Source of the DNA: an uncultured Atopobiaceae bacterium
Lineage (GTDB): Bacteria > Actinomycetota > Coriobacteriia > Coriobacteriales > Atopobiaceae
Length of the DNA stretch: 64,000 nucleotides
Assembly: GCA_947599965.1 (NCBI GenBank)
Contig: CANQFP010000001.1
Location: 1-64,000 of the forward strand
Reading direction: 5' to 3'
The notes under the pieces were generated by a model. The model did not search any database. It was not told the origin of the DNA and was given only the letters and a program-made list of their open reading frames with translations. Of the stretch, positions 2,561 through 18,068 are shown piece by piece; the first letter of the stretch is position 1, and each line of letters starts with the position of its first letter. Made by a program: the position numbers and the translations under genes.

Positions 2561-3802
2561 TCAGAAATCCAGGGATCCCGGCACCACCGCATCCGCCTCG
2601 GCTTCGGCCTCCGTGGTCGCGAGCTCCGCGGCCGTGAAGCCGAAGAGGTAGGTCACGATCGCGCTCACCACCAGCGCGAGCACGGCCGTGGCCACGCCGA
2701 AGGCCACGTTCACGAGGCCGCCCGGCAGGTAGTTCAGGAAGACGAGGAAATTCGAGCCGCCGCCCGCGATGTAGTAGGTCACGCCGAGCAGGCACGCCGC
2801 CACGGAGCTCACGGCGCCGCCCACGAACATGCCGAGGAAGGTGCGGCGATAGCGCATGTTGATGCCGAAGAGCGTGGGCTCGGTGACGCCGCCCACCACG
2901 GCCGCCACGAGGTAGCCGAGCGATTGGGCCTTCTGGTCCTTGTCGCGCAGGCGCAGGAACGCCCCCAGCGCGCAGCCCCACACGGCAAAGGAGCAGCAGT
3001 TGGCGGCCACGAAGATGTAGGGGTCGTAGCCCACCTGGATGATCTGCACCTGCGCGAGGAGGATGATCGGCATGTGGATCTGCGCGATGACGAAGAGCTG
3101 CCAGAACGCCCCCATGAGGGCCATGAAGACGAGGATCGCGAAGCCGCCGAGGTCGGCGAGTGCGAAGAGCGCCTCTCCGATGGCCATGCCGATGAGGTTG
3201 CCGAGCGGCGCCAGCACGATGAGCACGATGGGCACGGCGATGACCATTGTCAAAAACGGCGTGAAGATGGTGGAGAGCGCGTCGGGCATCCAGCTCTTGA
3301 TCCAGCGTTCCAGCACGTAGATGAGCGGCACGGCGAGCATGATCGGCAGCACCGACTGGCTGTAGTTGGCCGCGGCGATCTCGAAGCCGTAGACGCTGAT
3401 CGTGCCGCCGCCCTCCTGCGCGGCCGCGGCGACGATGCCGGGGGAGATGAGGACGCCGCCCATGAGGGCGCCGAGCACGGGCGTGGCGCCGATCTTTCGA
3501 GCCGACGTGAAGCCGAGGTAGATGGGGATGAAGTAGAAGCACGCGTCGAAGAGGATGGTGTTGAAGAAGAGGTAGGTGGGGCTCTCCGGGCTGATGAGGT
3601 TCAGCAGATCGGGCCCCAAGACCACCGCGAAGGAGCGGAAGAGACCTCCCGCCATGATGAGCGGGATGAGCTGGATCATCGAGCCCGTGAAGAAGTCGAG
3701 CACCTTGTCCGCCGCGCGGCGCACCGGGCCCTTGGGCGTGGCGTCCTCTTCCCTCTCGGGGATCAGACCTTCGCCGACGAGGGGATTCTCGCTCTCAGCC
3801 AT
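2561..3802 (-). CDS. PTS EIIC membrane permease, glucose/beta-glucoside family, without EIIB domain
   Basis: This 413-residue hydrophobic protein is the sugar-translocating subunit of a glucose-superfamily PTS. It carries the family signatures LIPLIMAGGLF, GATPVLGALMGG and GGVTEPTLFG, the loop that contacts sugar. It is closely related to the EIIC part of the gene at 5517-6986 over its whole length, including ISVYG.EIAAANYSQSVLPIML, so the two arose by duplication. No EIIB domain is fused or adjacent, so it must borrow phosphate from the EIIB of its paralogue or serve as a variant-specificity channel. It follows the glycosidase gene by 6 bases, with GAGGA before its ATG, and is the last gene of the operon. 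A palindromic element begins 4 bases past its stop. Confidence 0.9.
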   Translation of the reverse strand: MAESENPLVGEGLIPEREEDATPKGPVRRAADKVLDFFTGSMIQLIPLIMAGGLFRSFAVVLGPDLLNLISPESPTYLFFNTILFDACFYFIPIYLGFTSARKIGATPVLGALMGGVLISPGIVAAAAQEGGGTISVYGFEIAAANYSQSVLPIMLAVPLIYVLERWIKSWMPDALSTIFTPFLTMVIAVPIVLIVLAPLGNLIGMAIGEALFALADLGGFAILVFMALMGAFWQLFVIAQIHMPIILLAQVQIIQVGYDPYIFVAANCCSFAVWGCALGAFLRLRDKDQKAQSLGYLVAAVVGGVTEPTLFGINMRYRRTFLGMFVGGAVSSVAACLLGVTYYIAGGGSNFLVFLNYLPGGLVNVAFGVATAVLALVVSAIVTYLFGFTAAELATTEAEAEADAVVPGSLDF

Positions 3803-3808
3803 GGTTCC

Positions 3809-5419
3809 TCAGGCTTTCTCCGCCACCAAGAGCCAGTCTTCTGCGCTCGGCTTCTCCGGCAGCGGCCACGCTCCCTCGATGGTAGCTTCCCACGGCTCGC
3901 CGTAGGCGCCCGTGCGGGGGTCGAACCATCGAAGGCGCCACGTACCCGCCGCAAGGCCCGCGACGGCGAGCGGCTTGCGCACCGATTCCGAGTAGTAGGC
4001 CACGAGCCTGCTCCCGTCCTCGGCGACGCTCGCGAGCGGCTTCGCGCGTCCGAGCACGGCGCTTCCCGCCTCGCCCGCATAGGGCACGAGGTGCGAGAAG
4101 TCCTGCTCCTCGTAGAAGCGCCGCATGACGCCCATCTGCGCGCCTCCGGGCGCGTCGATCGCGTCCACCCACGTCACGCGGTTTCGGTTGAAGGTGTTCG
4201 CGAGATGGCGGCTCATCGGATCGGCCTCGAATTGCGACGCGTCCCAGATGTCGTCCCAGATGCCCTGGGCTCCGTAGGTGTAGCCGGCCGCGCCGAGCTG
4301 CATCGCGGTGTAGGCCACGCGTCGGAGCATCACCGGCGTGATCTCGCGCGGGCCGTTGACCTCGAGCGACGAGCAGAGCTCGTACATGGACTCGCCCTCG
4401 ATGAAGGGCTTGGTTCCATGCGCGGCGAAGAACTCGCGATAGTCGCTCTCGGCGATGACGAAATCGCCGTGGCCGGCTTGGTTGAGCGTGAAGTCGAACC
4501 AGTCCTCGTCGTGGTAATAGCTCGCGAAGGGGCGTTCGTTGGTGTAGTGCGCCGTCTGGAGGTGGCCGTAGCCGTCGCACTCCTCGAAGACCTTCGCCAC
4601 CTCACGCCAGCGATCGATGAGCGTCTCTCGCATCTCGGGGTTGTAGCCCGCGATCTCGCCAGCGAGCGTCCACACCATGGGGTAGGCGCCGTAGCGCGCC
4701 ACGATGTAGCGCGCCGTGGCGGCCATCGCGCGCGGGCCCTCGGGCGAGAGGATCGAATCGTTCCAGGCGATGCCGAGCGCATCCACGAGGCCGGCATTTG
4801 CCACGTATGCCATGCGACGATCGAGTTCTTGCTGGTAGAAGGCCACGTTCGGCACGAGACGCTCGAGGTCGCCGTCCACCCAGTAGCGCTCCACGCCGTG
4901 GAAATCCGTGCGCAGGTTCGTCTGGTAGACCGTGAAGCCCTGCTCCACGCGGCGATCGACCATGCCACGGAACATCGAGCTCATGGCGGGGTGGTTCGAT
5001 TCGTCCCAGCGCTCACCGTAGGCGAACTCCCAGTGCGTGTCGCCCAGCCAGAAGAAGGGCGTGCCATCGGCGTAGGCGAGATGACGCCCGTCATCGGCCA
5101 CGCGGATGAAGCCGTGGCGATAGAGCGCGAGCTCACCCTCGTAGGGACGCGCCTCGAGCGAGCCCGCGAGGCCGTCGAGCGTGGGATCCTCCGCGCAGGA
5201 GGTGTGCCAGTGCCACTCCCCCGGCTCCGTGGGCGCGAAGGAGACGCGATAGACGCATCCGCCGTCCCAGTAGGCCTCGCGACGGATGACGCGCCCGGAG
5301 GGTGCCTCGAAGCGGGCCAGGAGGTGCAGATCGTCGAGCGGACGCTCGGGCGTCCACGCCGCCTCGAACGTCAAGATCTCCGGCCGCCAGCAGATGGCTC
5401 GAACGGGCTCTGCGCTCAT
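3809..5419 (-). CDS. Intracellular apiosidase-like glycoside hydrolase (DUF5060-DUF4038-Collagen_bind_2)
   Basis: A 536-residue enzyme with three regions. Residues about 5-95 form a DUF5060-type beta domain (EPGEWHWHTS). A TIM barrel of the DUF4038 family, which includes the GH140 apiosidases, starts at HGFIRV...FFWLGDTHW. The C-terminal module has WRLRWFDPRTG and ends in DWLLV. Candidate catalytic glutamates are Glu255 in TLAGE and Glu341 or Glu343 in PFIEGE. There is no signal peptide, so it acts in the cytosol. It lies between two PTS permease genes, implying that it cuts an imported, probably phosphorylated, glycoside. The ATG at 5419 is preferred because GGGGAGGAG precedes it. Apiose specificity is inferred from the family and from the transketolase operon nearby; other beta-glycosides are possible. 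Confidence 0.85.
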   Translation of the reverse strand: MSAEPVRAICWRPEILTFEAAWTPERPLDDLHLLARFEAPSGRVIRREAYWDGGCVYRVSFAPTEPGEWHWHTSCAEDPTLDGLAGSLEARPYEGELALYRHGFIRVADDGRHLAYADGTPFFWLGDTHWEFAYGERWDESNHPAMSSMFRGMVDRRVEQGFTVYQTNLRTDFHGVERYWVDGDLERLVPNVAFYQQELDRRMAYVANAGLVDALGIAWNDSILSPEGPRAMAATARYIVARYGAYPMVWTLAGEIAGYNPEMRETLIDRWREVAKVFEECDGYGHLQTAHYTNERPFASYYHDEDWFDFTLNQAGHGDFVIAESDYREFFAAHGTKPFIEGESMYELCSSLEVNGPREITPVMLRRVAYTAMQLGAAGYTYGAQGIWDDIWDASQFEADPMSRHLANTFNRNRVTWVDAIDAPGGAQMGVMRRFYEEQDFSHLVPYAGEAGSAVLGRAKPLASVAEDGSRLVAYYSESVRKPLAVAGLAAGTWRLRWFDPRTGAYGEPWEATIEGAWPLPEKPSAEDWLLVAEKA

Positions 5420-5516: not shown

Positions 5517-6986
5517 CTAATAGTCCATGGCGCCGGGCAAAACCGCATCGGCGTCGGCCTCTTCCTCGGTCGTACCGAGCTCCTCCTTCGTGAAGCCGAA
5601 CATCATGGTCACGACGGCACCCACCACGATGGAGCACGCGGCACCGATGAGCATGCAGATGAGGTTCTGCATGCCACCCTGCATGTACTGGAGGGCGATG
5701 AGGAAGTTGGTGGCGCCGCCGCCGGGATAGACGACCACGCCGAGGAGGCCGGAGAGCACGGCACCCGCGGCACCGCCGGCGAACATGCCGAGCATGGTGC
5801 GACGATAGCGGAGGATGACGCCGAAGAGGCCGGGCTCGGTGACGCCGCCGAGGACGGCAGCCACGAGGTAGCCCCAGCACAGGCTCTTCTCGTCCTTGTC
5901 ACGCAGACGAAGCGCCGCGCCGAGGACGCAGCCCCAGACCGCCCACATGGCGCAGTTCGTGGAGACGAAGATCACGGGGTCCATGCCCGCCTGGGCGAGC
6001 TGGACGATGGCGACCATGATGATCGGCATGTGCATGCCGGCCACGACGAAGAGCTGCCAGAAGGCGCCGAGGATCGCCATGACGAGGAACGTGAAGACGC
6101 CACCGATGTCGGCGATGCCGAAGAGCGCGGCGCCGATGCCGTTACCGATGAGGGCGCCGAGCGGCGCGAGGATGATGAGGGAGATCGGGACGACGATCAC
6201 CATCGTGAGGAACGGGGTGAAGATCGTGGAGAGCGCGTCGGGCATCCAGCTCTTGATCCACTTCTCGATGAAGTAGATGCACGGGACGGAGAGCATGATC
6301 GGCAGCACCGACTGGCTGTAGTTCGCAGCGGCGATTTCGATGCCGTAGACGCTGATGATCCCGCCACCCTCCTGGGCAGCAGCGGAGATGATGCCCGGGG
6401 ATATGAGGATGCCGCCCATGAGGGCGCCGAGGACGGGCGTGGCGCCGATCTTGCGGCAGGCGCAGAAGCCGAGGTAGATCGGCAGGAAGTAGAACGCCGC
6501 GTCGTACATGATGTTGTTGAAGAAGATGTACGCGGCGCTGTCCTCGGCGAGGATGTTGAGCATGGTCGGGCCGAGCACGACGGCGAAGGTGCGGAAGAGA
6601 CCGCCTGCCATCATGAGCGGGATCAGCTGGACCATGGAGCCGGAGAGGAAGTCGAGCGCGTTATCCCAAACCTTCTTCGGGGTGAGCGGCTCCTTCTCCG
6701 CGTCGCCCAGGTCCTCGTCCACGGAGCCGCCGCCGGCGACGCCCATGCCCGTGACCTCGGCGTAGACCTTCGGCACGTTCTGGCCGATGATCACCTGGAA
6801 CTGGGGGCCGGCCCACACGGCGCCGAGCACGCCCTTGACGCCCTTGACGGCGTCTTCGTCGACCAGGCTCTTGTCCTTCACGGTGAGACGAAGGCGCGTC
6901 ATGCAGTGCGTGGCGTTGCCCACGTTCTCGGGACCACCGACTGCGGCAAGGACGCCTTCGGCGATCGCTTTGTTGTCAACGGCCAT
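5517..6986 (-). CDS. PTS EIIBC, glucose/beta-glucoside family
   Basis: The 489-residue protein starts with an EIIB domain (residues 1-80). Its phosphorylated cysteine is Cys28 in NATHCMTRLRL, the classical HCxTRLR motif. A linker with GGGSVDEDLGDAEKEP leads into an EIIC membrane domain (about 110-475) with LIPLMMAGGLF, GATPVLGALMGG and GGVTEPGLFG. It takes phosphate from EIIA and phosphorylates the sugar during import. There is no fused EIIA; the stand-alone EIIA at 17556-18068 is the obvious donor. It is the first gene of its operon, with a sigma-70-like promoter and an operator-like palindrome upstream. Its EIIC part is a paralogue of the EIIC gene at 2561. Substrate is not determined by sequence; context suggests apiosyl- or rhamnosyl-glucosides. 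Confidence 0.93.
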   Translation of the reverse strand: MAVDNKAIAEGVLAAVGGPENVGNATHCMTRLRLTVKDKSLVDEDAVKGVKGVLGAVWAGPQFQVIIGQNVPKVYAEVTGMGVAGGGSVDEDLGDAEKEPLTPKKVWDNALDFLSGSMVQLIPLMMAGGLFRTFAVVLGPTMLNILAEDSAAYIFFNNIMYDAAFYFLPIYLGFCACRKIGATPVLGALMGGILISPGIISAAAQEGGGIISVYGIEIAAANYSQSVLPIMLSVPCIYFIEKWIKSWMPDALSTIFTPFLTMVIVVPISLIILAPLGALIGNGIGAALFGIADIGGVFTFLVMAILGAFWQLFVVAGMHMPIIMVAIVQLAQAGMDPVIFVSTNCAMWAVWGCVLGAALRLRDKDEKSLCWGYLVAAVLGGVTEPGLFGVILRYRRTMLGMFAGGAAGAVLSGLLGVVVYPGGGATNFLIALQYMQGGMQNLICMLIGAACSIVVGAVVTMMFGFTKEELGTTEEEADADAVLPGAMDY

Positions 6987-7040
6987 AGGGTTCCCCTCTC
7001 TCTTGGCCGATCTCTACACAAACTCATCACACGTACGAAC

Positions 7041-7089
7041 TCTATAAAGCATGGCCTTCCGAGTTGTGAAGGCCGAGATTTAGTAAATC
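7041..7089 (-). promoter_or_regulatory. Promoter and TTTAGTAAA operator of the EIIBC operon
   Basis: On the minus strand TTCACA (plus 7065-7070) and TTATAG (plus 7042-7047) are 17 bases apart and resemble -35 and -10 boxes. Just upstream, 7077-7089 is GATTTAGTAAATC, a palindrome centred on 7083. The core TTTA(G/C)TAAA recurs at 12302-12310 and 18140-18148, upstream of the other two operons, so it is a candidate shared operator. A 7-bp hairpin GGCCTTC/GAAGGCC (7053-7074) overlaps the promoter. Confidence 0.6.
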
Positions 7090-7112
7090 CTTTAATCCCC
7101 TCCTCGCGATGA

Positions 7113-7168
7113 GTAATCGTTTACCTAGTGCCGCTTTGCAGTGTAGCAGATTGCGTAAACGTTTGCGC
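7113..7168. promoter_or_regulatory. Paired LacI-type operator candidates
   Basis: Two palindromes with a central CG, typical of LacI-family sites, lie upstream of the EIIBC promoter. GTAATCGTTTAC is at 7113-7124, and GCGTAAACGTTTGCGC is at 7153-7168 (7 of 8 pairs match). Their centres are 42 bases apart, about four helical turns, which would suit looping by one tetrameric repressor or two dimers on the same face. The LacI-family regulator encoded at 12396 is the likely binder, by inference. Confidence 0.55.
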
Positions 7169-7230
7169 GGAGATGTTCGCCCAGATTGGCCGCTCACCGA
7201 TGGAGGGGCCACCGGTTCGGCCAACCGCCA

Positions 7231-7340
7231 GCGAGGCGTTTCGGGGCGCCCGGTATGGAAAGAGCCACGGGGATTCGAAACGTCAGCGAGAAGCTTCGGG
7301 GTGCCCGGTATGGAAAGAGCCACAGGGATTCGAAACGTCA
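7231..7340 (-). repeat. Tandem 55-bp direct repeats
   Basis: Two adjacent 55-base units (7231-7285 and 7286-7340) share the core GGTATGGAAAGAGCCAC and GATTCGAAACGTCAGCGAG. Each begins with a version of the outer left arm of the palindromic element, and the full element at 7345 continues the series as a third start. Unit 1 has the GGCGTTTCGGGGCGCC form of the arm. Unit 2 has AAGCTTCGGGGTGCC, the form used by the element copy at 18297. The sequence around 18283-18310 also matches a unit junction. This looks like an array of partial element copies. Confidence 0.75.
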
Positions 7341-7344
7341 GCGA

Positions 7345-7447
7345 GGCGTTTCGGGGCGCCCGAGATGCGGGTGATTTTGCGGCCGTAGCGCAACTTCGCT
7401 ACTCGAGGCCGCAAAATCGCGCGCAGATCGGGTGCATCCGGGACGCC
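7345..7447 (-). repeat. Structured palindromic repeat, copy 2 (3' of the FGGY kinase gene)
   Basis: The outer arms are 7345-7363 and 7428-7447; the apical hairpin 7374-7417 has stem ATTTTGCGGCC/GGCCGCAAAAT around GTAGCG-CAACTT-CGCTAC. It begins 6 bases beyond the kinase stop codon. It is nearly identical to the copy at 2455 except in the left arm, where GGCGTC...GGTGCCC becomes GGCGTT...GGCGCCC, and in the bases between arm and apical stem. Confidence 0.8.
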
Positions 7448-7453
7448 GCAGCG

Positions 7454-8953
7454 TCATTGCCGATGCATGGTTTGGTAGAGCGCCGATTCCCACCTGGCCA
7501 GCCGCTCCTCGCGCTCGCCCTCGCCCATCTTCGGCTCGTAGACGGTGCGCTCGATGGCGTCGTAGATGGCGTTGCCGCGATAGACGCCGGCCTTGGAGCC
7601 GGCCACGTAGGCCACGCCGCCCGCCGAGAGCTCGGCCAGGCTCGAGACCACGACCGTCACCCGGGCGAGATCGGCTTGGAGCTGCATGAGGTAGGCGTTA
7701 TGGGAGGGCCCGCCGTCGGCGCGGAGCTCCGCCACCGGGAAGCCGCTGTCGGCGCGCATGCCGAGCACGAGCGAGGTGTCTTGCAGGCAGATGCTGTCGA
7801 CGACCGCCTTCACCATCTCGTTTCTGCCGGTCGTGCGCGTCACGCCCGTGAGGAGGCCCGTCGCGTCGCCGTCCCACCAGGGTGCACCGAGCCCGGTGAA
7901 GGCCGGCACGAAGACGGCGCGATCCCTCGGGTTCGCCTTGGCGCAGATCTCCTCGGTCTCGCCCGGCTCGTGGATGAGCTTCATGTCGTCGATGAGCCAG
8001 GTGATGACGGCGCCGGAGTAGTTGATGTTGCCCTCGAGGATGTAGGAGACCTTGCCGCCGAAGTCCCAGGCGATGGAGCTCACGAGCCCGCTTCGGCTCT
8101 GGATGAGCCGATCGCCCGTCTGGAGCACCACCGAGGAACCCGTGCCGTAGGTGGCCTTGAGCTCGCCCGCGTCGAGGCAGTTCTGCGCCGCGAGCGCCGC
8201 CTGGGAATCGCCGAGGACGCCGCAGACGGGGATGGGATCGTCGAAGAGCCCGCCCATGGTGGTGGTGCCGAAGACGCTGTCGGAGTGCACGACCTCGCCG
8301 AGCGCCTCGATGGGCAGGCCGAAGAAGTCGCAGAGCTCTCGGCTCCACGCCACCTCGCGAAGGTCGAGGAGCTGGGTGCGGCACGCGTTCGAGGGCTCCG
8401 TCTTGAAGGGATGCTCGCGGCAGAGCTTGAAGCAGAGCCAGGAGTCGATCGTGCCGAGGGCGAGCGTGCCGCGCTCGGCGGCGTCGGCCACGGGCGGGAT
8501 GTTCTCGAGGAGCCACGCCATCTTCGAGGCGGAGAAGTAGGGCGAGAGCTCGAGCCCCGAGAGCTCGCGGACGCGCTCCACCTCCCCCGCCTTCTCGGCG
8601 GCGAGCCGGGCGCAGAGCTCCTGGGCTCGGCCGTCCTGCCAGACGATGGCGTTCGCGAGGGCCTGGCGCGTCTCCTTGTCCCAGGCGAGGCAGGTCTCGC
8701 GCTGGTTCGAGAGGCCGATGCAGGCCACCTCCCCGTCGAGGACGCCCGCCTGGGTGCAGGCGTCGCGCGCCACGGCGAGCACGTTGGTGACGATCTCCTC
8801 GGGGTCGTGGGAGACCCAGCCCCGATCGTTCACGATCTGGCGGTGCGGTCGGGAGGTCTTCACCACCGCGCGGCCGAACTTGTCGAAGAGGACCGCCTTG
8901 GTCCCCTGGGTGGACTGGTCGATGGCGAGGACGAAGGGCGCGTTCTCGTGCAT
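7454..8953 (-). CDS. FGGY-family carbohydrate kinase, candidate D-apulose kinase
   Basis: The 499-residue protein is a full FGGY kinase: an N-terminal ATPase core motif AIDQSTQGTKAVLFD, then NQRETCLAWD, TYGTGSSVV and FVPAFTGLGAPWWDGDATGL, and near the C-terminus ADGGPSHNAYLMQ. Its closest look is to glycerol kinase, but glycerol kinases read AIDQGTTSSR in the first motif, so another substrate is likely. It is the last gene after an isomerase and two transketolase halves. In characterised apiose pathways an FGGY kinase makes D-apulose 4-phosphate, which a split transketolase uses, and this operon fits that scheme. GAGGAGG precedes the ATG. Substrate is inferred from context. Confidence 0.85.
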   Translation of the reverse strand: MHENAPFVLAIDQSTQGTKAVLFDKFGRAVVKTSRPHRQIVNDRGWVSHDPEEIVTNVLAVARDACTQAGVLDGEVACIGLSNQRETCLAWDKETRQALANAIVWQDGRAQELCARLAAEKAGEVERVRELSGLELSPYFSASKMAWLLENIPPVADAAERGTLALGTIDSWLCFKLCREHPFKTEPSNACRTQLLDLREVAWSRELCDFFGLPIEALGEVVHSDSVFGTTTMGGLFDDPIPVCGVLGDSQAALAAQNCLDAGELKATYGTGSSVVLQTGDRLIQSRSGLVSSIAWDFGGKVSYILEGNINYSGAVITWLIDDMKLIHEPGETEEICAKANPRDRAVFVPAFTGLGAPWWDGDATGLLTGVTRTTGRNEMVKAVVDSICLQDTSLVLGMRADSGFPVAELRADGGPSHNAYLMQLQADLARVTVVVSSLAELSAGGVAYVAGSKAGVYRGNAIYDAIERTVYEPKMGEGEREERLARWESALYQTMHRQ

Positions 8954-8980: not shown

Positions 8981-9919
8981 CTAGGCCTTGGCCAAGAGCT
9001 CCCCGGCGCTCTTCGCGATGCCGGCGGCGTCGAGGCCGTAGCGCTCGAAGATCTGGGCCTTCGTGCCCGTCTTCACGGGGGCGTCCGGCAGCGCGAGGGT
9101 CTTCACCGGGCGGGGGCACGTCTCCCCCACCACCTGGGCCACCATGGAACCGAGCCCGCCGAAGGGCGCGGCCTCCTCGGCTGTGAGCACGACCTTCGCA
9201 CCGCGGGCGGCCCGGAGCACGGCCTCCACGTCGAGGGGCTTCACGCAGTACATGTCCACGACCGTGGTGGAGACGCCCTCGGCCTCGAGGGCCTTCGCGG
9301 CCTCCAGGCACGCGTGCACGAGCTCGCCCGTGGCGATGAGGGCCACGTCGGAGCCCTCGCGGAGCACGTTCGCATGGTCGAGCTCGAAGGGGCAGTCGTC
9401 GTCGGCGTAGACGTCGGGCACCACGGAGCGGCCCACGCGCACGTAGGCGCACTTCTCGTCGTCGAGCAGGGCGTTCATGAGCTTGCGCGTCTGGTGCTGG
9501 TCGCTCGGCAGGTAGACCCGCATGTTGGGCACGGCGGCGAGCGCCGCGATGTCCTGGGCGCTCTGGTGCGTCATGCCGAGCTCGCCGTAGGAGACGCCGC
9601 CGGAGATGCCCACGAGGGTGACGTTGGTGTCGGAGTAGGCGCAGTCCACGCGCGCCTGCTCAAAGGAGCGCGTGGCGAGGAAGCTCGCCGGCGAGACGGC
9701 GACGGCCTTCTTGCCGCAGCGCGCGAGGCCGGCGGCCATGCCCACGAGATCCTGCTCGGCGATGCCGACCTCCACGGCCTGCTCGGGGTAGGTCTCGTAG
9801 AAGGGGTCGAGTGCGGCCGACCCGCGCGAATCGGAGCAGAGCACCACGATGTCGCGATCGCTTGCGGCTCGCTTCATGAGCACGTCCGCGATGACGGCGC
9901 GGTTCGCGAGATTAGCCAT
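8981..9919 (-). CDS. Transketolase C-terminal half, candidate apulose-4-phosphate transketolase subunit B
   Basis: The 312-residue protein matches the pyrimidine-binding and C-terminal domains of transketolase. It has VEVGIAEQDLVGMAAGLA, which holds the glutamate that activates thiamine diphosphate, and a C-terminal domain with LIATGELVHACLEAA. It works only as a complex with the N-terminal half encoded just upstream. The ATG at 9919 overlaps the end of that gene by 8 bases and uses a GAGGAGG site inside it, so the halves are made in step. Split transketolases occur in pentose pathways; the pairing with a dedicated kinase and a glycosidase of the apiosidase family points to apulose 4-phosphate plus glyceraldehyde 3-phosphate giving xylulose 5-phosphate and dihydroxyacetone phosphate. 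Confidence 0.9.
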   Translation of the reverse strand: MANLANRAVIADVLMKRAASDRDIVVLCSDSRGSAALDPFYETYPEQAVEVGIAEQDLVGMAAGLARCGKKAVAVSPASFLATRSFEQARVDCAYSDTNVTLVGISGGVSYGELGMTHQSAQDIAALAAVPNMRVYLPSDQHQTRKLMNALLDDEKCAYVRVGRSVVPDVYADDDCPFELDHANVLREGSDVALIATGELVHACLEAAKALEAEGVSTTVVDMYCVKPLDVEAVLRAARGAKVVLTAEEAAPFGGLGSMVAQVVGETCPRPVKTLALPDAPVKTGTKAQIFERYGLDAAGIAKSAGELLAKA

Positions 9920-10757
9920 GGCGCACCTCCTCGGCACGGGCCTTGAGCTCGGCCTTGATCTGCTCGTACTGCTCGGCGTTCGGCACCTGGTGGTGCCAGC
10001 CGGCCTTGTTCTCCATGAGCGGGCTGCCGTAGCCCTTCACCGTGTTCGCGATGATCATCGTCGGAGCGCCCTTGGTGGCCTCGGCCTCGGAGAAGGCGTC
10101 GTCGAGCGCCTCGAGGTCGTGGCCGTCCACCTCGATCACGTGCCAGCCGAAGGCCTTCCAGCGCTCGGCCTGGGAATCGAGCTTCATCACGGCCTCGGTG
10201 TCGCCCGAGATCTGCAGGCGGTTGCGATCGATGAGGCCGCAGAGGTTGTCGAGCTCGAAGTTCGAGCCGCTCATGGCCCCTTCCCAGACGGAGCCCTCGG
10301 CGAGCTCGCCGTCGCCCATGAAGCAGTAGGTGCGATAGGAGAGGCCGTCCATCTTGGCGGCCAACGCCATGCCGCAGGCGATGGGCAGGCCGTGGCCGAG
10401 CGAGCCGGTGTTCATCTCGATGCCCGGGATGCCGCGGTTCGGGTGGCCGATGTAGGGGCTGCCGTTCTTGGCGTAGGTGCCGATGACCTCCTTCACGTCG
10501 ATGAAGCCCGCGGCGGCGAGCACCGCGTAGAAGGCCTCCACCGCGTGGCCCTTCGAGAGCAGGAAGCGATCGCGGTTCTTGTCATCGCGCTGCTCCGGGC
10601 TCATGTTCAGATGGCGGAAGTAGAGCACGAGCATGGCGTCCAACACGGAGAAATCGCCTCCGAGGTGCCCGGTTTTCCCGTTGAAGACCATGTCGAGCGC
10701 GTCGCCGCGCAGCTTCCAGCGCAGATCCTCCAGCTCTGTGAGCTCTTTACGCTCCAC
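9912..10757 (-). CDS. Transketolase N-terminal half, candidate apulose-4-phosphate transketolase subunit A
   Basis: This 281-residue protein is the thiamine-diphosphate-binding half of transketolase. Visible are KTGHLGGDFSVLDAML, RDRFLLSKGHAVEAFYAVLA, GSLGHGLPIACGMALAAK and the GDG...N motif MGDGELAEGSVWEG...LIDRNRLQ that binds magnesium and cofactor. A GTG start at 10757 lies 6 bases past the isomerase stop, with AGGGGAGAG before it. With the next gene it makes one active site per heterodimer. The substrate is not readable from sequence; the apiose assignment is by context. Confidence 0.9.
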   Translation of the reverse strand: MERKELTELEDLRWKLRGDALDMVFNGKTGHLGGDFSVLDAMLVLYFRHLNMSPEQRDDKNRDRFLLSKGHAVEAFYAVLAAAGFIDVKEVIGTYAKNGSPYIGHPNRGIPGIEMNTGSLGHGLPIACGMALAAKMDGLSYRTYCFMGDGELAEGSVWEGAMSGSNFELDNLCGLIDRNRLQISGDTEAVMKLDSQAERWKAFGWHVIEVDGHDLEALDDAFSEAEATKGAPTMIIANTVKGYGSPLMENKAGWHHQVPNAEQYEQIKAELKARAEEVRHG

Positions 10758-10763
10758 GAAGGT

Positions 10764-12182
10764 TCACTCTCCCCTCAGATAGGCCTTGACCTCTTCCTCG
10801 ATGGGATCGTAGAGGTCGGGCATGATGCCGAGATACTTTCCGCAGGCCTCGTAGAGGATCGGCACGACGTTGCCGTGGATCGCCGTGCAGTGGTGGATGT
10901 AGGGACCCTCGACGATCTTGGCCTCGAGGCGCTTGATGTTCGCCACCTTGATCCAGAGGTAGGTTCCCTTGCCCATCGGCCCGTCGATGCCCTCGGCGTT
11001 GCCGAGGAGCAAGGAATACCGTCCGTGGTCGCCGTCGAAGCGGGCGATGGTGAGCTCGCCGTGCTTGGCCTCGGCGGTGACGGCGCCGTTGTAGTTGAAG
11101 GCGAGCGGCAGCGTCACCTTCGGACGCTCGCAGGCAACCGAGCAGGGCCAGGGGCCGCAGTGCTGCAGGAGCTCGCCGTTGGGCTCGTCGGGGTGGCGGA
11201 TCGTCCAGTCGGCGAAGAAGGAGCGCTTCTCGTTCATGGCCGCAGCCTCCACGAGGAGCGAGGTGATGGAGCCGTGCACGTCCGTCTCGCAGGAGATGGG
11301 GAAGCCCTCCTCGTTCAAGATCGAGTTCGCCGCGCAGGGCATGATGCCGAGCTCGTGCTGGAGCTCGTTCCAGCACTGGATGCAGCCGGCCGTGCAGTGG
11401 TAGGCCTCGAGCATGCGGCGCATGGCCACCGCCATGCCGGCCACGGTCTCGAGCTGCTCCTCGGAGCAGTTGATGTCGTAGCGCTCGCGGATCCAGGCGA
11501 TCTGCCTCTCGATGGCGGATCCGCCGTCGCCCGTGGCCTCGCCCTTGGCCTCGGCCACGGCGCGCGTGAGCTCGGGCAGGGGCACGGGCACGCATTCGAT
11601 GTTGAAGCGCTCGAGGAGCTCGCCCTCGTTGCACATGGTGGAGTAGAACTCGTAGGGCCTGGGGCCGATCTGGAGGATGCGCGCCTCGCGGAAGACCTTC
11701 ACGACGTTGCAGACGGCGAGGAAGTCGCGCAGGCCGCGCTCGAAGACGGGGTCGTCCACCCGGCAGTTCGTCATGTAGGTGAAGGGGACGTTGAAGCGGC
11801 GGAGCACCTTGCCCGTGGCGAAGAGGCCGCACTGGCTGTCACGCGGACGCGTGCCGTCGGGCTCGGGGCGCTCGTCGAGCGGGCCCCAGAGGAGCACCGG
11901 CACGTCGAGATCCTTGGCGAGGCGGGCGCACATGAACTCCGTGCCGAAGTTGCAGTGGGGCAGGAAGAGGCCGTCGACGTGCTCGGCCCTGAACTTCTCG
12001 AGGATCTTCAGGCGATCCTCCTCGCAGAAGAGGAGGCCCTCCTCGTTGACGTCGTCGATGTCGACGTAATCGATGCCGAGCTCGTCGAGCTTGTCGGCGA
12101 TGATGCCGCGATACTTGCGCGCATCGGGCGCCGAGAAGATGCTGCGGCGCGTCGGAGCGTATCCCAGGCGAATCGTTGCCAC
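10764..12182 (-). CDS. L-fucose/L-arabinose isomerase-family protein, candidate apiose isomerase
   Basis: This 472-residue protein has the length and outline of the FucI/AraA-fold ketol isomerases. It has an N-terminal Rossmann-like region (LFLPHCNFGTEFMCARLAKD), a middle region (CTAGCIQCWNELQHELGIMPC) and a C-terminal sugar-binding part with conserved histidines (GPYIHHCTAIHG). The family converts aldoses to ketoses with manganese held by Glu, Asp and His. It is unusually cysteine-rich. It is the first gene of the kinase-transketolase operon, so its product should be the ketose that the kinase phosphorylates. If the pathway is for apiose, this would be the apiose-to-apulose isomerase. The start is GTG at 12182, with GGAGGAAAGGGG upstream. 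Family assignment is good; substrate is inference. Confidence 0.75.
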   Translation of the reverse strand: MATIRLGYAPTRRSIFSAPDARKYRGIIADKLDELGIDYVDIDDVNEEGLLFCEEDRLKILEKFRAEHVDGLFLPHCNFGTEFMCARLAKDLDVPVLLWGPLDERPEPDGTRPRDSQCGLFATGKVLRRFNVPFTYMTNCRVDDPVFERGLRDFLAVCNVVKVFREARILQIGPRPYEFYSTMCNEGELLERFNIECVPVPLPELTRAVAEAKGEATGDGGSAIERQIAWIRERYDINCSEEQLETVAGMAVAMRRMLEAYHCTAGCIQCWNELQHELGIMPCAANSILNEEGFPISCETDVHGSITSLLVEAAAMNEKRSFFADWTIRHPDEPNGELLQHCGPWPCSVACERPKVTLPLAFNYNGAVTAEAKHGELTIARFDGDHGRYSLLLGNAEGIDGPMGKGTYLWIKVANIKRLEAKIVEGPYIHHCTAIHGNVVPILYEACGKYLGIMPDLYDPIEEEVKAYLRGE

Positions 12183-12345: not shown

Positions 12346-12395
12346 AGGCGCGCGCGTTGTACAACGACTCCGAAGTCTTGGAGAAGTGGAGCTCG

Positions 12396-13472
12396 ATGAA
12401 GGTCACCGCGCGCGACGTGGCACGGGAGGCCGGGGTCTCCCCGGCCACCGTCTCTTTGGTGTTCCAGCAAAAGCCCGGCGTCTCGCGATCGACGCGCGAG
12501 CGCGTCTTCGAGGTGGCCGCCCGTCTCGGCTACGTCTACGAGGCGCGCACCGCCGATCGGGCCACCTCCACGATCCTCTTCGTCATGTACAAGAAGCACG
12601 GTCAGGTGGTCTACGAGACGCCCTTCTTCGAGGAGCTTTTGAAGGGCGTCACCGACGCCACCTACCGCCACGGCTATCACAAGCTCGCGGTTTCCTATTT
12701 CTACGGCCGCGAGAGCGCCTACGAGCAGATGAAGTCCGTGCAGTCGGTGCGCTGCGCGGGGCTCGTGCTCCTCGCCACCGAGGCCATGGCCACCGACATC
12801 GCCCAGTTCGAACGCCTCGGCGTGCCGATCGTGCTTCTGGACAGTTGGTTTCCCACCAAGAGCCTCGACAGCGTCATCATCGACAACACGCGCGGTGCCT
12901 ACGACGCGGTGCGCTACCTCATTTCCAAGGGCCATTCCGACATCGGCTACCTGCACTGCGGCGTCTCGATCCGCAACTTCCTCGAGCGCCAGAGCGGCTT
13001 CTCGAGCGCCATGCGCGAGATCGCCCCGCGCACCGACAAGCTCCCGCCGATCGTGCGCGTGGGCTCCACCTTCGAGGATTCCTACGCCGACATGAGCGCC
13101 TACCTCGACGCCGGCATCGAGCTGCCCACGGCCTACTTCGCCGACAACGACATCATCGCCTACGGCTGCATCAAGGCCCTCACCGACCACGGCTACCGCG
13201 TGCCCGCAGACGTCTCCGTCATCGGTTTCGACGACATGGTGTTTCCCGAGGTCATGGTGCCCAGACTCACGACGATGGCCGTGCCCAAGGACGCCATGGG
13301 CGAGCTCGCGGTGAAGCGCCTCGCCGACCTCATCAAGGGCGAGACGAACGGCGAGACCATCCGCCTCGCCGTCCAGACCAAGGTGGTCGAGCGCGACAGC
13401 GTGCTCGACCTGCGCGCGGGCGGCGCGCCCGAACCGAGCACCCACCCCTCGGCGAGAGAGAGCGAGAGATGA
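12396..13472 (+). CDS. LacI-family transcriptional regulator
   Basis: The 358-residue protein has an N-terminal helix-turn-helix with hinge (KVTARDVAREAGVSPATVSL, residues 2-21) and a periplasmic-binding-protein-like effector domain (ILFVMYKKH onward, with VSVIGFDDMVFPEVMVPRLT near residue 285). The ATG at 12396 is preferred over a TTG 39 bases upstream because GGAG precedes it and LacI proteins begin here. It reads divergently from the isomerase operon and shares ATGA with the HPr gene. CcpA-type LacI proteins use phospho-Ser46 HPr as corepressor; whether this one contacts its coupled HPr is an open question raised by the arrangement. Effector is likely a sugar or sugar phosphate of the locus. 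Confidence 0.9.
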   Translation: MKVTARDVAREAGVSPATVSLVFQQKPGVSRSTRERVFEVAARLGYVYEARTADRATSTILFVMYKKHGQVVYETPFFEELLKGVTDATYRHGYHKLAVSYFYGRESAYEQMKSVQSVRCAGLVLLATEAMATDIAQFERLGVPIVLLDSWFPTKSLDSVIIDNTRGAYDAVRYLISKGHSDIGYLHCGVSIRNFLERQSGFSSAMREIAPRTDKLPPIVRVGSTFEDSYADMSAYLDAGIELPTAYFADNDIIAYGCIKALTDHGYRVPADVSVIGFDDMVFPEVMVPRLTTMAVPKDAMGELAVKRLADLIKGETNGETIRLAVQTKVVERDSVLDLRAGGAPEPSTHPSARESER

Positions 13473-13726
13473 TCCAGAACGTATGCACCCTAAAGGATCC
13501 CGCCGGCCTGCACGCGCGCCTGGCGGCGCGCATCGCCGAGGCGGCACGGGGCTGCGAGAGCTCTCTCTCGATCTCCTTCAAGGGGATCGAGGCGAAGGCC
13601 ACCGACATCCTCGGCCTCATGCAGATCGACGCGAACGAGAACGACCTGCTCCTCGTGGTCTCGGACGGACCAGACGAGGATCACGCGCTCTCCCAGGTTC
13701 GAAGCATCATCGAGACCGTGGGCTAG
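13469..13726 (+). CDS. HPr-like phosphocarrier with Asp at position 46
   Basis: The 85-residue protein aligns without gaps to HPr. The phosphorylated histidine is His15 in AGLHARLAA. It should carry phosphate from enzyme I (not in this window) to the EIIA at 17556-18068. Two positions are odd. Ser46, the HPr-kinase target in Firmicutes, is Asp (KATDILGL), and Pro18 after HAR is Leu. Asp46 is the change commonly engineered to imitate phospho-Ser46. The gene starts at ATG 13469, overlapping the LacI-family stop as ATGA, so both are made together. It may be a dedicated HPr for this sugar system or the cell's only HPr; the window does not say. Confidence 0.9.
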   Translation: MIQNVCTLKDPAGLHARLAARIAEAARGCESSLSISFKGIEAKATDILGLMQIDANENDLLLVVSDGPDEDHALSQVRSIIETVG

Positions 13727-13753: not shown

Positions 13754-14572
13754 CTACGCGAGATCGAGATAGCCCTCGCGCGGCGTCACGTGGAACCAGT
13801 CGGCGATCTCGCGGAGCTCGTCGTCGGTGATGGTCTGCAGGATGGGCATCTGCGCGATCTTGAGGTAGATCTCGGCGGCCTTCTCGGCGGTCTCGATGAG
13901 CCCGAAGGTCTCGTCCAAATCTGCGCCGGCTCCGTAGATGCCGTGTTGGCCCCACACCACGAGCCGCGAACGCCTCATCTTCTCGGCCGTGGCCTCGCCG
14001 ATCTCGTTCGTGCCGCAGAGCATCCACGGCAACACGCCGATGCCGTCGGGGAAGACGATCATGCATTCGGTGCACATCTGCCAGAGCGTCCGGGTGAAGG
14101 CGCGCTCGTCGAGATCGTGGACGAAGGTCATCGCCAGCAAGTTGGCCGGATGGCAGTGCATGATCACGCGATTCGCCGGGTTCTCGGCGAGGCGCACGGC
14201 GTGGCTCATGAGGTGCGCGGGGAGCTCCGAGGTGAATGAGCCGCCGTCGGCGTAGCCCCAGAGGAGCTCGGCGGTGCGGCCGCTGTCCGTCACGCGGATG
14301 ACACCGAGGTTGTTCTCGGGATCGTACTGCACGTTCTTGAAGTACTTGCCGGTTCCCGTCACGAGGAAACAGCGGCCGTCGAGCGTCGGCGCATCGAAGC
14401 CCGTGGGAATGGAGCGCAGGGGATGGGAGACGTCGAGGTAGCGCGCGAGCTCCTCCTCGTCCACGAGCAGGCTGATGTTGCCGCCGTTTCGCTCGTCCCA
14501 TCCGTGGTCGTACATGTTGGTGGTGGTGCGGATGAGCTCGACCATGAAGGGCGCGTCGAGGATGGTTTCCAT
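13754..14572 (-). CDS. rhaD: Rhamnulose-1-phosphate aldolase
   Basis: At 272 residues it matches RhaD of E. coli (274) in length and motifs. It is a class II aldolase that splits L-rhamnulose 1-phosphate into dihydroxyacetone phosphate and L-lactaldehyde using zinc. Visible are GWDERNGGNISLLVDE near the N-terminus, FLVTGTGKYFKNVQ, the zinc pair in RVIMHCHPANLLAM, and VVWGQHGIYGAG with the third zinc histidine. It is the last gene of the EIIA-kinase-isomerase-aldolase operon, 10 bases after the isomerase. No lactaldehyde reductase or dehydrogenase is nearby, so lactaldehyde must be handled elsewhere. Confidence 0.95.
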   Translation of the reverse strand: METILDAPFMVELIRTTTNMYDHGWDERNGGNISLLVDEEELARYLDVSHPLRSIPTGFDAPTLDGRCFLVTGTGKYFKNVQYDPENNLGVIRVTDSGRTAELLWGYADGGSFTSELPAHLMSHAVRLAENPANRVIMHCHPANLLAMTFVHDLDERAFTRTLWQMCTECMIVFPDGIGVLPWMLCGTNEIGEATAEKMRRSRLVVWGQHGIYGAGADLDETFGLIETAEKAAEIYLKIAQMPILQTITDDELREIADWFHVTPREGYLDLA

Positions 14573-14582
14573 GAGGGCTCCC

Positions 14583-16001
14583 CTATCTCGTGACGATCGT
14601 GACCGGGACGTCGAAGATCTTCGCGACCTTCAGAATGGTATCGATATGGCGGCCGGAGGCGGCGGCCATGTGGTGCGTGGGGCCGGCTTCGCTCCACCGA
14701 TCGCAGAACGCGCGTGCGCCGCAGGAGAAGCGCGTGCGCATGTTCGTGTCGCCGAAGGTGAAGATGGGTCCGGGCTCGTTCACGCCCTCGGCCACCACGA
14801 ACGCGAAGTGCCCGTCGGCGTCCTGCGTGATGGCGAGGTAGGTCACGGGCCCGAGGTGCGGATAGAACTGGGTGAGGTAGCCGCCGCCGGTCTTGCCGTG
14901 GAAGACGGGCACGATCCTCATGGTCGGCTTCTCGGCCGAGATGTCCGCGTCGCCCGAGCCGGAGTGGCCGATGATGCAGATGTCCTCGTCGAAATCGATG
15001 GAGTACATCTCGGAGAGCTGCCCCGTGCCGGCGATGGTCTTCAAGATCCCCATCGCCATGGCCACCTTGATGTCACCTTCCACGGCGCAGGCCACGCCCT
15101 GCTTGATGAGCATGGAGAAGGCCGGGATGAGCATGGAATCGAGGATGCCCGCCTTACCTTGGGCGTAGCCGTCGTAGTGGGAGGCCACGAAGCCGAGCCG
15201 CTCCTCGCGCACCCAGGCCTCGAACGCCACCACGTAGCGCGCCATCTCCCAGACGGTCTCGACCGTGGCGCCGCCCTCGATGTCGAAGGTGGCGAGGATC
15301 TCCTCGGCCTTCGCGCGAATGGCCGCCTCGTCGGTGACGTCGTCGGCGATGGCCCAGAGCCTCTCCCAGTCGAACTGCTTGGTGTAGAGCCCCATGCGAT
15401 GGTAGAGGTTCGTCTCGTCGATGTAGAGATCCATCATGCCGGGGTAGGGCCGACCGATCTGGGCGAGGTTGAGCGAGCGGAAGCGCCGGCGCACCTGCGC
15501 CGCACGGCACCAATCCTCGATCTGGGCCCACGCCTCGGGATCTCCGCCCTCCTGGACGCCGGTGATGACGGCGTGGCGTTTGCCGGCACGCTCGAGGTCG
15601 GCCACCATCTCGCCCACCGCGCCGCATGCGTAGAGCTCCCCCAGCCAGGTGGCCGTGTCGGTGTGCTCGTAGTCGGGCGCCCGGAGCTTCTGGAGGTTCA
15701 CGAGCACCACCGGCACGTCGAGGTCGCGCACGGCCGGCAGCAGGTTGTAGCTCGTGGCGTAGGTGAGGAGCTGGCAGATCACGAGGTCCACGTCGGCGGC
15801 GCGGAAGGCCTCTCCCGCGGCCATGGCGAGCTCCTTGGTGGTGACGAGCCCGCCGTCCACGACGTCGACCGTGCCCGGCATCTGCGCGAGGAAGCTCGCG
15901 TACTGGGTACGGAACTCGCCCTCCAAGCTCGGAAACTGCGGAAGATACGCCCCGAGGGCGATGGAGAAGACGCCGACCTTGGCCCGGGTGTCGATGAGCA
16001 C
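14583..16001 (-). CDS. L-arabinose/L-fucose isomerase-family protein, candidate rhamnose isomerase substitute
   Basis: The 472-residue protein resembles AraA-like isomerases: LVICQLLTYATSYNLLPAV, VPVVLVNLQKLRAPDYEHT, then AVEGDIKVAMAMGILKTIAG and FHGKTGGGYLTQFYPHLGPV. It sits between rhamnulokinase and rhamnulose-1-phosphate aldolase, exactly where RhaA is expected. It does not resemble RhaA, a xylose-isomerase-like TIM barrel. It is therefore a likely non-homologous replacement that makes L-rhamnulose. I take the GTG at 16001, with AAGGGAGG seven bases upstream, over a longer frame to 16043. It is only distantly similar to the isomerase at 10764, despite equal length. Confidence 0.8.
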   Translation of the reverse strand: MLIDTRAKVGVFSIALGAYLPQFPSLEGEFRTQYASFLAQMPGTVDVVDGGLVTTKELAMAAGEAFRAADVDLVICQLLTYATSYNLLPAVRDLDVPVVLVNLQKLRAPDYEHTDTATWLGELYACGAVGEMVADLERAGKRHAVITGVQEGGDPEAWAQIEDWCRAAQVRRRFRSLNLAQIGRPYPGMMDLYIDETNLYHRMGLYTKQFDWERLWAIADDVTDEAAIRAKAEEILATFDIEGGATVETVWEMARYVVAFEAWVREERLGFVASHYDGYAQGKAGILDSMLIPAFSMLIKQGVACAVEGDIKVAMAMGILKTIAGTGQLSEMYSIDFDEDICIIGHSGSGDADISAEKPTMRIVPVFHGKTGGGYLTQFYPHLGPVTYLAITQDADGHFAFVVAEGVNEPGPIFTFGDTNMRTRFSCGARAFCDRWSEAGPTHHMAAASGRHIDTILKVAKIFDVPVTIVTR

Positions 16002-16049
16002 GATGGATCCTCCCTTTGGTCGATCGAAGCGTGCGGAGCGCAACGCGCG

Positions 16050-17540
16050 CTATTCGGGGTCGAAGCGCACGAGCTCGAACGAGTTCGCGATGATGCGTCG
16101 GGCGATGGCGAGGTTCGGGATGCTCCCGGCCGAGATCATCTGCACGACGAGGTTGCCGGCGCTCGTGGCCTCCACCGGTCCGGCGATGACGGGCTTGCCG
16201 CAGGCGTTGGCCGTGATCTGGTTGAGATGGCCGTCCTGCGATCCGCCGCCCACGATGGAGATGGCCCCGTAGCTCGCGTGCGTGATGGCCTCGATGCCCG
16301 CCACCGCGCGCTCGTAGGCGCTCCCGAGGCTGCGATAGATGCAGGTCATGAGCTCGCCCACCGTCGTCGGCAGCGGCTCGTTCGCCCCCGCGCACCAAGC
16401 GCAGACGGCCTCCATCATGGAGTGGGGCGCGAGGAATGCGTCGTCGTCCACGTCCACGAGGGAGGAAAAGTCCGGGGTCTCCACGGCGCAGGCGATGAGG
16501 TCCTCGAAGCCCACGGCCCGGTCGAGCCCGAGCGGCGCGATGGCGCCCGAGAGGGGTCGCGCGGCCTCCTCGCGACCGCTCACGTAGGAGACGCCGTTCA
16601 GCTCGCGGCGCACGGACTGGATCATCCAGAGCCCCATGATGTTCTTGAGGAAGCGGTAGGTTTTCGCGAAGCCGCCCTCGTTCGTGTAGTTGCCGTCGCG
16701 CGCGGCAGCGCTGAGCTCGGGTTCCCCTCGCTCGACGCCGAGCAGGCTCCACGTTCCCGAGGAGAGGATGATCGAGTTGCGCTCCGTCGCGGCGAGGTAG
16801 GCCGAGCCCGTATCGTGCGAGGCCACGAGCACGACGTTCGTGTCGTAGCCGATGCGCTCGGCGACCTTCGTCGTCACCTTGCCGAGGACGCGCCCTGGGA
16901 AGGAGAGCTCGCCGAAGAGCGCGCGCGGAATGCCGTAGGCGTCGAGGAGCCCCTCGTCCCAGGTCCTCGAGCGCGCGTTCACGAGCCCCGTCGTCGTGGC
17001 GTTCGTGTACTCCTGCGCCTTCACGCCCGTGAGGAGAAAGCCGAGGTAGTCGGGGACCATGAGGAGCGCTCGGGCCTCTGCGAACGCGTCCGGCGTCTCG
17101 CGTCTTTGGGCCAGGAGCTGGTAGACGGTGTTGATGGGGTTTCGTTGGATGCCGGTTCTCGCCCAGGCCACGCGCGGAGGCACGAGCGCGTCGGCGACGG
17201 CGAACATGCCGTCGGTGCGCAGATCGCGGTAGGCCACCACGTCGCCGATCAGGCGATCCTCGGCGTCGAGGAGCGCGTAGTCCACGCCCCAACTGTCGAT
17301 GGCCACGCTCGCGGGCTCGAAGCCGTGCTCCCTGCACAGGGCGAGCCCCTCGAGGATCTCCTCGAAGAGCTCGTCGATCTTCCAGCAATCGTGGCCCGCG
17401 GTGCGCCGCTGGCCGTTCTCGAAGCGATGGATCTCCTCCGAACGCAGGAGATCGTCGTGCTCGAGCCAGCCCACGACGACGCGACCGCTCGACGCGCCGA
17501 GGTCGATGGCGGCATGGCAGTGCCTGCGCATCTTCCCCAT
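16050..17540 (-). CDS. rhaB: Rhamnulokinase
   Basis: The 496-residue FGGY kinase has the RhaB-type first motif AAIDLGASSGRVVVGW, then DSWGVDYALLD, NPINTVYQLL, SHDTGSAYLA, ILSSGTWSLLG and IVGGGSQDGHLNQITANACG. It phosphorylates L-rhamnulose to L-rhamnulose 1-phosphate. It follows the EIIA gene by 15 bases and precedes the isomerase by 48. Two ATGs three codons apart (17540, 17531) are possible starts; neither has a strong ribosome site, so coupling to the EIIA gene is likely. The need for a free-sugar kinase shows that rhamnose is not phosphorylated by the PTS itself but released inside the cell. Confidence 0.95.
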   Translation of the reverse strand: MGKMRRHCHAAIDLGASSGRVVVGWLEHDDLLRSEEIHRFENGQRRTAGHDCWKIDELFEEILEGLALCREHGFEPASVAIDSWGVDYALLDAEDRLIGDVVAYRDLRTDGMFAVADALVPPRVAWARTGIQRNPINTVYQLLAQRRETPDAFAEARALLMVPDYLGFLLTGVKAQEYTNATTTGLVNARSRTWDEGLLDAYGIPRALFGELSFPGRVLGKVTTKVAERIGYDTNVVLVASHDTGSAYLAATERNSIILSSGTWSLLGVERGEPELSAAARDGNYTNEGGFAKTYRFLKNIMGLWMIQSVRRELNGVSYVSGREEAARPLSGAIAPLGLDRAVGFEDLIACAVETPDFSSLVDVDDDAFLAPHSMMEAVCAWCAGANEPLPTTVGELMTCIYRSLGSAYERAVAGIEAITHASYGAISIVGGGSQDGHLNQITANACGKPVIAGPVEATSAGNLVVQMISAGSIPNLAIARRIIANSFELVRFDPE

Positions 17541-17555
17541 GGCGCGACGCCCGGG

Positions 17556-18068
17556 CTAGCTGACGGTGATGACCGGCTGGCCGGCCTTCACGGGCTGCGG
17601 GTCGATGGAGTTCACGGAATCGTACTCGGCGGTGTTGGAGATGAGGACCATGACGTCGTCGGGGTGCCCGGCCTTCTTGATCTTGGCGCGGTCGAAGGTG
17701 ACGAGCGGCTGGCCGGCCTTCACCTTCTCATCCTGCTTGACGTACATCTGGAAGCCCTCGCCCTTCATCTGGACGGTGTCCACGCCGATGTGGATGAGGA
17801 CCTCGACGCCGTCATCGGAGAGCAGGCCGACGCCGTGGCCGGAGCCCATGGTGGCGGAGACGGTGCCGTTGAAGGGAGCGTAGGCCACCGAGCCGGAGGG
17901 CTTGATGACGATGCCCTGGCCGAGGATGCCCTGGGCGAAGACGGGATCCGGGGCCTCGGAAAGCGCGACGGCCTCACCGTCGACGGGCGCGAGCACGGTC
18001 TTGGGCGCCGGCGTGCAGGCGATCGGCTCGGGCTTGGACGGCTTCTTGAACTTATCGAAGAGACCCAT
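17556..18068 (-). CDS. crr: PTS EIIA, glucose family
   Basis: The 170-residue soluble protein is an EIIA-Glc domain: an unstructured start with MGLFDKFKK, then VLAPVDGEAVALSEAPDPVFA and FAQGILGQG. The active-site histidine is in EVLIHIGVDTVQMKGEGF. It accepts phosphate from HPr and gives it to EIIB. No EIIB or EIIC is fused to it, so it is the natural partner of the EIIBC at 5517-6986 and the EIIC at 2561-3802, which lack EIIA. It leads the rhamnose operon, which ties that operon to the PTS operon. AAGGA precedes the ATG. Confidence 0.93.
   Translation of the reverse strand: MGLFDKFKKPSKPEPIACTPAPKTVLAPVDGEAVALSEAPDPVFAQGILGQGIVIKPSGSVAYAPFNGTVSATMGSGHGVGLLSDDGVEVLIHIGVDTVQMKGEGFQMYVKQDEKVKAGQPLVTFDRAKIKKAGHPDDVMVLISNTAEYDSVNSIDPQPVKAGQPVITVS

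Follow-up and report, generated by a model that had tools for sequence, protein, structure and literature searches.

Why does a gene for a GH140-type glycosidase lie between two PTS permease genes, and on what would its product act? The question is raised by positions 3809–5419 of the window (the whole stretch of DNA analysed, 64,000 nt from an uncultured Atopobiaceae bacterium).

Organization of the locus

The gene forms part of a minus-strand operon transcribed in the order isomerase, transketolase N half, transketolase C half, FGGY kinase, EIIBC, GH140 and EIIC, with EIIBC 97 bp upstream of the GH140 gene and the EIIC-only gene 6 bp downstream. Beyond the LacI and HPr genes lies an L-rhamnose gene set, the first gene of which encodes a glucose/beta-glucoside-type EIIA.

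2561–3802, minus strand: EIIC-only PTS permease, EIIB domain absent, 65% identity to the adjacent EIIBC (C domain)
3809–5419, minus strand: GH140 apiosidase-like enzyme, predicted cytoplasmic, DUF5060 plus PF13204, likely catalytic pair E255/E343
5517–6986, minus strand: PTS EIIBC, beta-glucoside-like glucose family, phospho-acceptor Cys28 present (CMTRLR)
7454–8953, minus strand: FGGY kinase, AplK-like (apulose kinase), DS in the pocket where glycerol kinase has DQ
8981–9937, minus strand: split transketolase, C-terminal half, AptB-like, probable start at an internal ATG (9919)
9912–10757, minus strand: split transketolase, N-terminal half, AptA-like
10764–12182, minus strand: L-fucose/L-arabinose-isomerase-family enzyme, predicted D-apiose isomerase
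12357–13472, plus strand: LacI-family regulator, divergent from the apiose operon
13469–13726, plus strand: HPr-family phosphocarrier, His-15 motif, 4-bp overlap with the LacI gene
13754–14572, minus strand: RhaD aldolase, L-rhamnose set
14583–16043, minus strand: isomerase-family protein, L-rhamnose set
16050–17540, minus strand: RhaB, L-rhamnose set
17556–18068, minus strand: PTS EIIA, glucose/beta-glucoside type, His93, in the L-rhamnose operon

Both permeases belong to the beta-glucoside-type glucose PTS family; neither reaches the curated cut-off of any named PTS family, so annotation does not fix their substrate. A PTS of the beta-glucoside type is complete (EIIC, EIIB with its active Cys, EIIA, HPr and EI, the last encoded in the source genome) and the PTS active residues are intact. 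The EIIA of the L-rhamnose operon could serve EIIBC, and the HPr-like protein is possibly a phosphocarrier dedicated to the operon. An HPr-like gene also adjoins the regulator in two other loci (L002 and L020), and the EIIC-only paralogue recurs in near-relative loci (L002 and L003). In the L-rhamnose set, the product of 14583–16043 matches L-arabinose/sulfoquinovose isomerase models weakly, at the place expected for rhamnose isomerase between RhaD and RhaB. An intergenic repeat that includes a hairpin (GATTTTGCGGCCGTAGC...GGCCGCAAAATC) occurs at 2440–2560 and 7000–7453, and a ~50-bp unit is present in near-tandem copies between EIIBC and the kinase; these repeats possibly represent a repeat family of the source genome.

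A long-type GH140 protein

The orf is genuine, with a Shine-Dalgarno-like GGAGGAG preceding its ATG at 5419. Its 536-aa product, the sole PF13204 protein of the source genome, consists of an N-terminal DUF5060 domain (55.7 bits in a profile search) and an Apiosidase domain (GH140/PF13204; 207.5 bits vs a curated cut-off of 26.5). Among named relatives, the closest belong to uncultured Atopobiaceae and to Kribbibacterium, and NCBIfam holds no model for this GH140 type. The AlphaFold prediction (mean pLDDT 91.6) matched the solved GH140 apiosidases 8t9w and 5msy (BT1012) in Foldseek (E about 1e-24), with TM-scores of 0.75–0.82 on target.

Two GH140 subtypes can be distinguished: a long type with DUF5060, to which the window protein belongs, and a short type, represented in Listeria, of some 430 aa. 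Both are found beside PTS genes and both are without a signal peptide. E343 is invariant across the two, while in the long type E341 and E255 hardly vary (position 255 is Glu in 25/25 long-type sequences of one alignment). From family knowledge we take E343 to be the nucleophile and E255 the acid/base; the latter position is occupied by Asp in BT1012 and in the short type. The first-pass annotation, which had called a DUF4038/GH140-type glycosidase at 3809–5419, set between EIIBC and EIIC genes and with Glu255 and Glu341/343 as catalytic candidates, is thus upheld by profile scores, gene positions and conservation alike.

The N-terminus (MSAEPVRAICWRPE) contains no hydrophobic stretch, its maximum 11-residue hydropathy being 0.79, compared with 3.1–3.2 in the positive controls, two GH140 proteins from Bacteroidota. 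No signal-peptide-like stretch was found in any of 46 sequences comprising the window protein and its relatives (maximum hydropathy 1.9). The earlier reading of the protein as a cytosolic enzyme lacking a signal peptide agrees with these values, with the presence of cytoplasmic apiose enzymes in the operon and with a PTS in 20/20 Coriobacteriia loci, and a cytosolic location is strongly supported at the level of sequence. What that reading had missed is that the operon appears to be a D-apiose catabolic operon.

Probable D-apiose pathway genes

The four genes at the start of the operon resemble a known pathway. Identity to AplK, AptA and AptB of E. coli SE15 is 37% for the kinase, 45% for the N-terminal and 39% for the C-terminal transketolase half. 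On a Klebsiella plasmid, the same genes for transketolase and kinase are accompanied by one for an isomerase 29% identical to that of the window. The names aplK, aptA and aptB were given in E. coli SE15, and carriers of the cluster grew on D-apiose (PMC13001218). Homologous kinase, split transketolase and isomerase genes lie in one cluster in Pectobacterium, E. coli ST131 and Klebsiella, as they do in the window. On the basis of the 29% identity to the Klebsiella cluster member and of synteny, the product of 10764–12182 is predicted to be a D-apiose isomerase. The pathway of Carter et al. 2018 (as cited in PMC13001218) reportedly runs from apiose to apulose, then to apulose-4-phosphate and the transketolase products.

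The overall similarity of the kinase is to glycerol kinase, and a separate glycerol kinase is present in the source genome. In a tree, AplK-type kinases form neither a single clade nor a group cleanly separated from glycerol kinases; it is a pocket residue that separates them, with D-S in 19/19 apiose-cluster kinases compared (E. coli AplK included) vs D-Q in 4/4 glycerol kinases (that of the source genome among them). In E. coli GlpK the Gln of this pair contacts glycerol. By homology, apulose is well supported as the predicted substrate of the window kinase.

Elsewhere, in Klebsiella and Monoglobus, the isomerase-transketolase-kinase block is accompanied by ribose-type ABC genes, which makes free apiose the likely entry point. 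This bears on the possibility that the PTS phosphorylates the apiosyl residue itself, so that GH140 would free an apiose phosphate. The adjacency of permease and GH140 genes would fit such a route, but the operon retains both an isomerase acting on free sugar and a kinase bearing the AplK pocket signature, and together with the ABC pairing this makes it scarcely credible.

Linkage and distribution

In a survey of 298 Coriobacteriia genomes, PF13204 exceeded its cut-off in 27 and the isomerase was found in 31. The two occur together in 25 genomes, with GH140 only in 2 and the isomerase only in 6 (Fisher p about 1e-28, relatedness ignored). This co-occurrence and the synteny with the apiose pathway also weigh against a GH140-like enzyme of another specificity, a reading for which one could cite the low identity of the long type to characterised GH140 enzymes (20–24%), the additional DUF5060 domain and the replacement of Asp by Glu at the acid/base position, and which we consider unlikely. 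Since the GH140 gene sits in a D-apiose catabolic operon, the leaving sugar would be apiose, and the predicted release of apiose by this enzyme is supported by that context.

A PTS permease adjoins the GH140/DUF4038 gene in 20/20 Coriobacteriia loci (19 genomes, many genera), where about 5% of random genes would be expected to fall within 3 kb of an EIIC. The permeases at these loci come from two unrelated families, mostly EIIBC of the glucose/bgl type, with Lac/cellobiose-family permeases at several loci in Collinsella and relatives. Because all 20 loci pair the genes, and do so via two PTS families, the GH140-PTS link is not a matter of chance. Outside Coriobacteriia, GH140 and PTS genes occur together with the apiose block, complete or partial, in Floccifex, Hungatella and Clostridium zeae, and a Lachnoclostridium locus combines GH140 with PTS and GH1 genes. 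The PTS might still import other beta-glucosides and share only a neighbourhood with the GH140 and apiose genes, Coriobacteriia being rich in PTS genes (5–22 EIIC genes per genome); given that the pairing holds at 20/20 loci across many genera, with two unrelated families, and recurs in Listeria and Clostridia, this is very improbable.

In many Clostridia and Collinsella loci an Abhydrolase_10 gene precedes the long GH140 gene (e.g. L016, 8568–10001; L004, 8469–9938), and its product may de-esterify acylated apiosides. In genome G587 the GH140 gene (L070, 9352–11044) looks frameshifted.

Proposed route and the question of phosphate

We therefore regard it as probable that the GH140 protein is an intracellular apiosidase in a PTS-fed operon, with import through the PTS and both cleavage and apiose degradation in the cytoplasm. 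Observed directly are the gene content, the linkage and the lack of a signal peptide; what is imported, and that it is phosphorylated, is inferred. EIIBC, working with HPr, EI and an EIIA (for example that of the gene 11 kb upstream), would bring in a small apioside of plant origin, most probably an apiosyl-beta-glucoside, which would become phosphorylated on its glucosyl part. As family membership and conservation suggest, GH140 would then cleave this compound at its apiosyl bond inside the cytoplasm, E343 serving as nucleophile and E255 as acid/base. By homology to E. coli and Pectobacterium, the free D-apiose would be converted to apulose by the isomerase and phosphorylated by the AplK-like kinase, and the two-part transketolase would yield pentose-phosphate and triose-phosphate intermediates. 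The leftover glucoside-6-phosphate could be hydrolysed by GH1 6-phospho-beta-glucosidases. The source genome has three GH1 genes, located on other contigs outside the apiose operon, all of which best match 6-phospho-beta-glucosidase profiles (one over the curated cut-off), and 6-phospho-beta-glucosidase genes recur near GH140 in several clusters.

Specificity of the enzyme for phospho-glycosides is plausible because the PTS family is that of beta-glucosides, 6-phospho-beta-glucosidases recur and all three GH1 proteins match them, which suggests that the substrate arrives as a glucose-6-phosphate derivative. Apiose itself should be released unphosphorylated, since a free-sugar isomerase and a kinase follow in the pathway; with free apiose as the starting point of the pathway, the +1 glucose is where any phosphate would be expected. 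The O6 of that glucose must then be free, so apiose would be linked elsewhere, as in apiin (2-O). A phospho-apiosidase in the full sense, that is a GH140 subfamily specialised for PTS-delivered 6-phospho-apiosylglucosides, is a tentative proposal to which we give somewhat less than an even chance. Rhamnogalacturonan-II was considered as a substrate and thought unlikely, as a PTS is not known to import such oligosaccharides.

The competing reading of specificity, which fits the rest of the proposed route, is that of a cytoplasmic apiosidase without phosphate recognition, either using unphosphorylated apiosides or tolerating a phosphate that it does not need. Four close GH140 relatives (L011–L014) share most active-site residues and are adjacent to ABC-transporter genes in place of PTS genes; in a tree these long-type sequences nest within PTS-linked members, apart from the divergent second copies of L011 and L012. 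PTS- and ABC-linked relatives differ at few positions (T293, E295, the 303 position and K482), and the sole difference seen in the active-site loop, HYTNERPF in the former vs HYDNHRPF in the latter, offers no clear phosphate site. The contrast rests on four ABC sequences that are not independent and was for that reason set aside as evidence for a phosphate site, the loop signature being only suggestive in this respect. Absence of phosphate recognition is harder to reconcile with the PTS at every Coriobacteriia member examined and with the recurrent 6-phospho-beta-glucosidase genes, and we place it close to an even chance.

Relation to known systems

The window protein shares Pfam family and fold with BT1012 (5msy) and with the mangrove-metagenome apiosidase (8t9w), and keeps the catalytic Glu of the GExxYE motif. 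It differs from both in having an N-terminal DUF5060, no signal peptide, Glu255 in place of Asp and a PTS-linked operon. The E. coli and Klebsiella apiose clusters examined encode a ribose-type ABC importer and no glycosidase, whereas the window combines a PTS with a predicted intracellular apiosidase instead. With bgl/arb-type operons (beta-glucoside PTS plus GH1 6-phospho-beta-glucosidase) the locus has in common the permease family and the coupling of PTS import to an intracellular glycosidase, but here the glycosidase next to the permease is GH140 and a pentose pathway lies within the operon.

The same operon is found in Listeria monocytogenes as lmo1030-lmo1036 (LacI, isomerase, two transketolase halves, kinase, PTS IIBCA and DUF4038), with the short DUF4038 type in Listeria and the long type in the window. 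In the literature found on lmo1036, the product is called a beta-glucosidase or a hypothetical protein and an apiose role is not named. According to a review, RliI, a small RNA, binds the transcript of lmo1035-lmo1036. Literature searches on apiose with PTS, apiosyl with phospho-beta-glucosidase and DUF4038 with PTS returned nothing relevant, and a gene set of apioside PTS, GH140 and apiose pathway was not found described as a unit.

The proposal gives a testable function to a PTS-linked operon carried by many gut Coriobacteriia, Clostridia and Erysipelotrichia, and by L. monocytogenes, the parts of which are currently annotated as beta-glucoside PTS, glycerol kinase, transketolase and hypothetical protein. 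If it is correct, apiosides, which are common plant glycosides, would join the substrates of the PTS, and GH140 would reach beyond the extracellular breakdown of pectin to the use of glycosides inside the cell. Should the enzyme prove to be a phospho-apiosidase, plant apiosides would be used wholly inside the cell by Gram-positive gut bacteria and Listeria.
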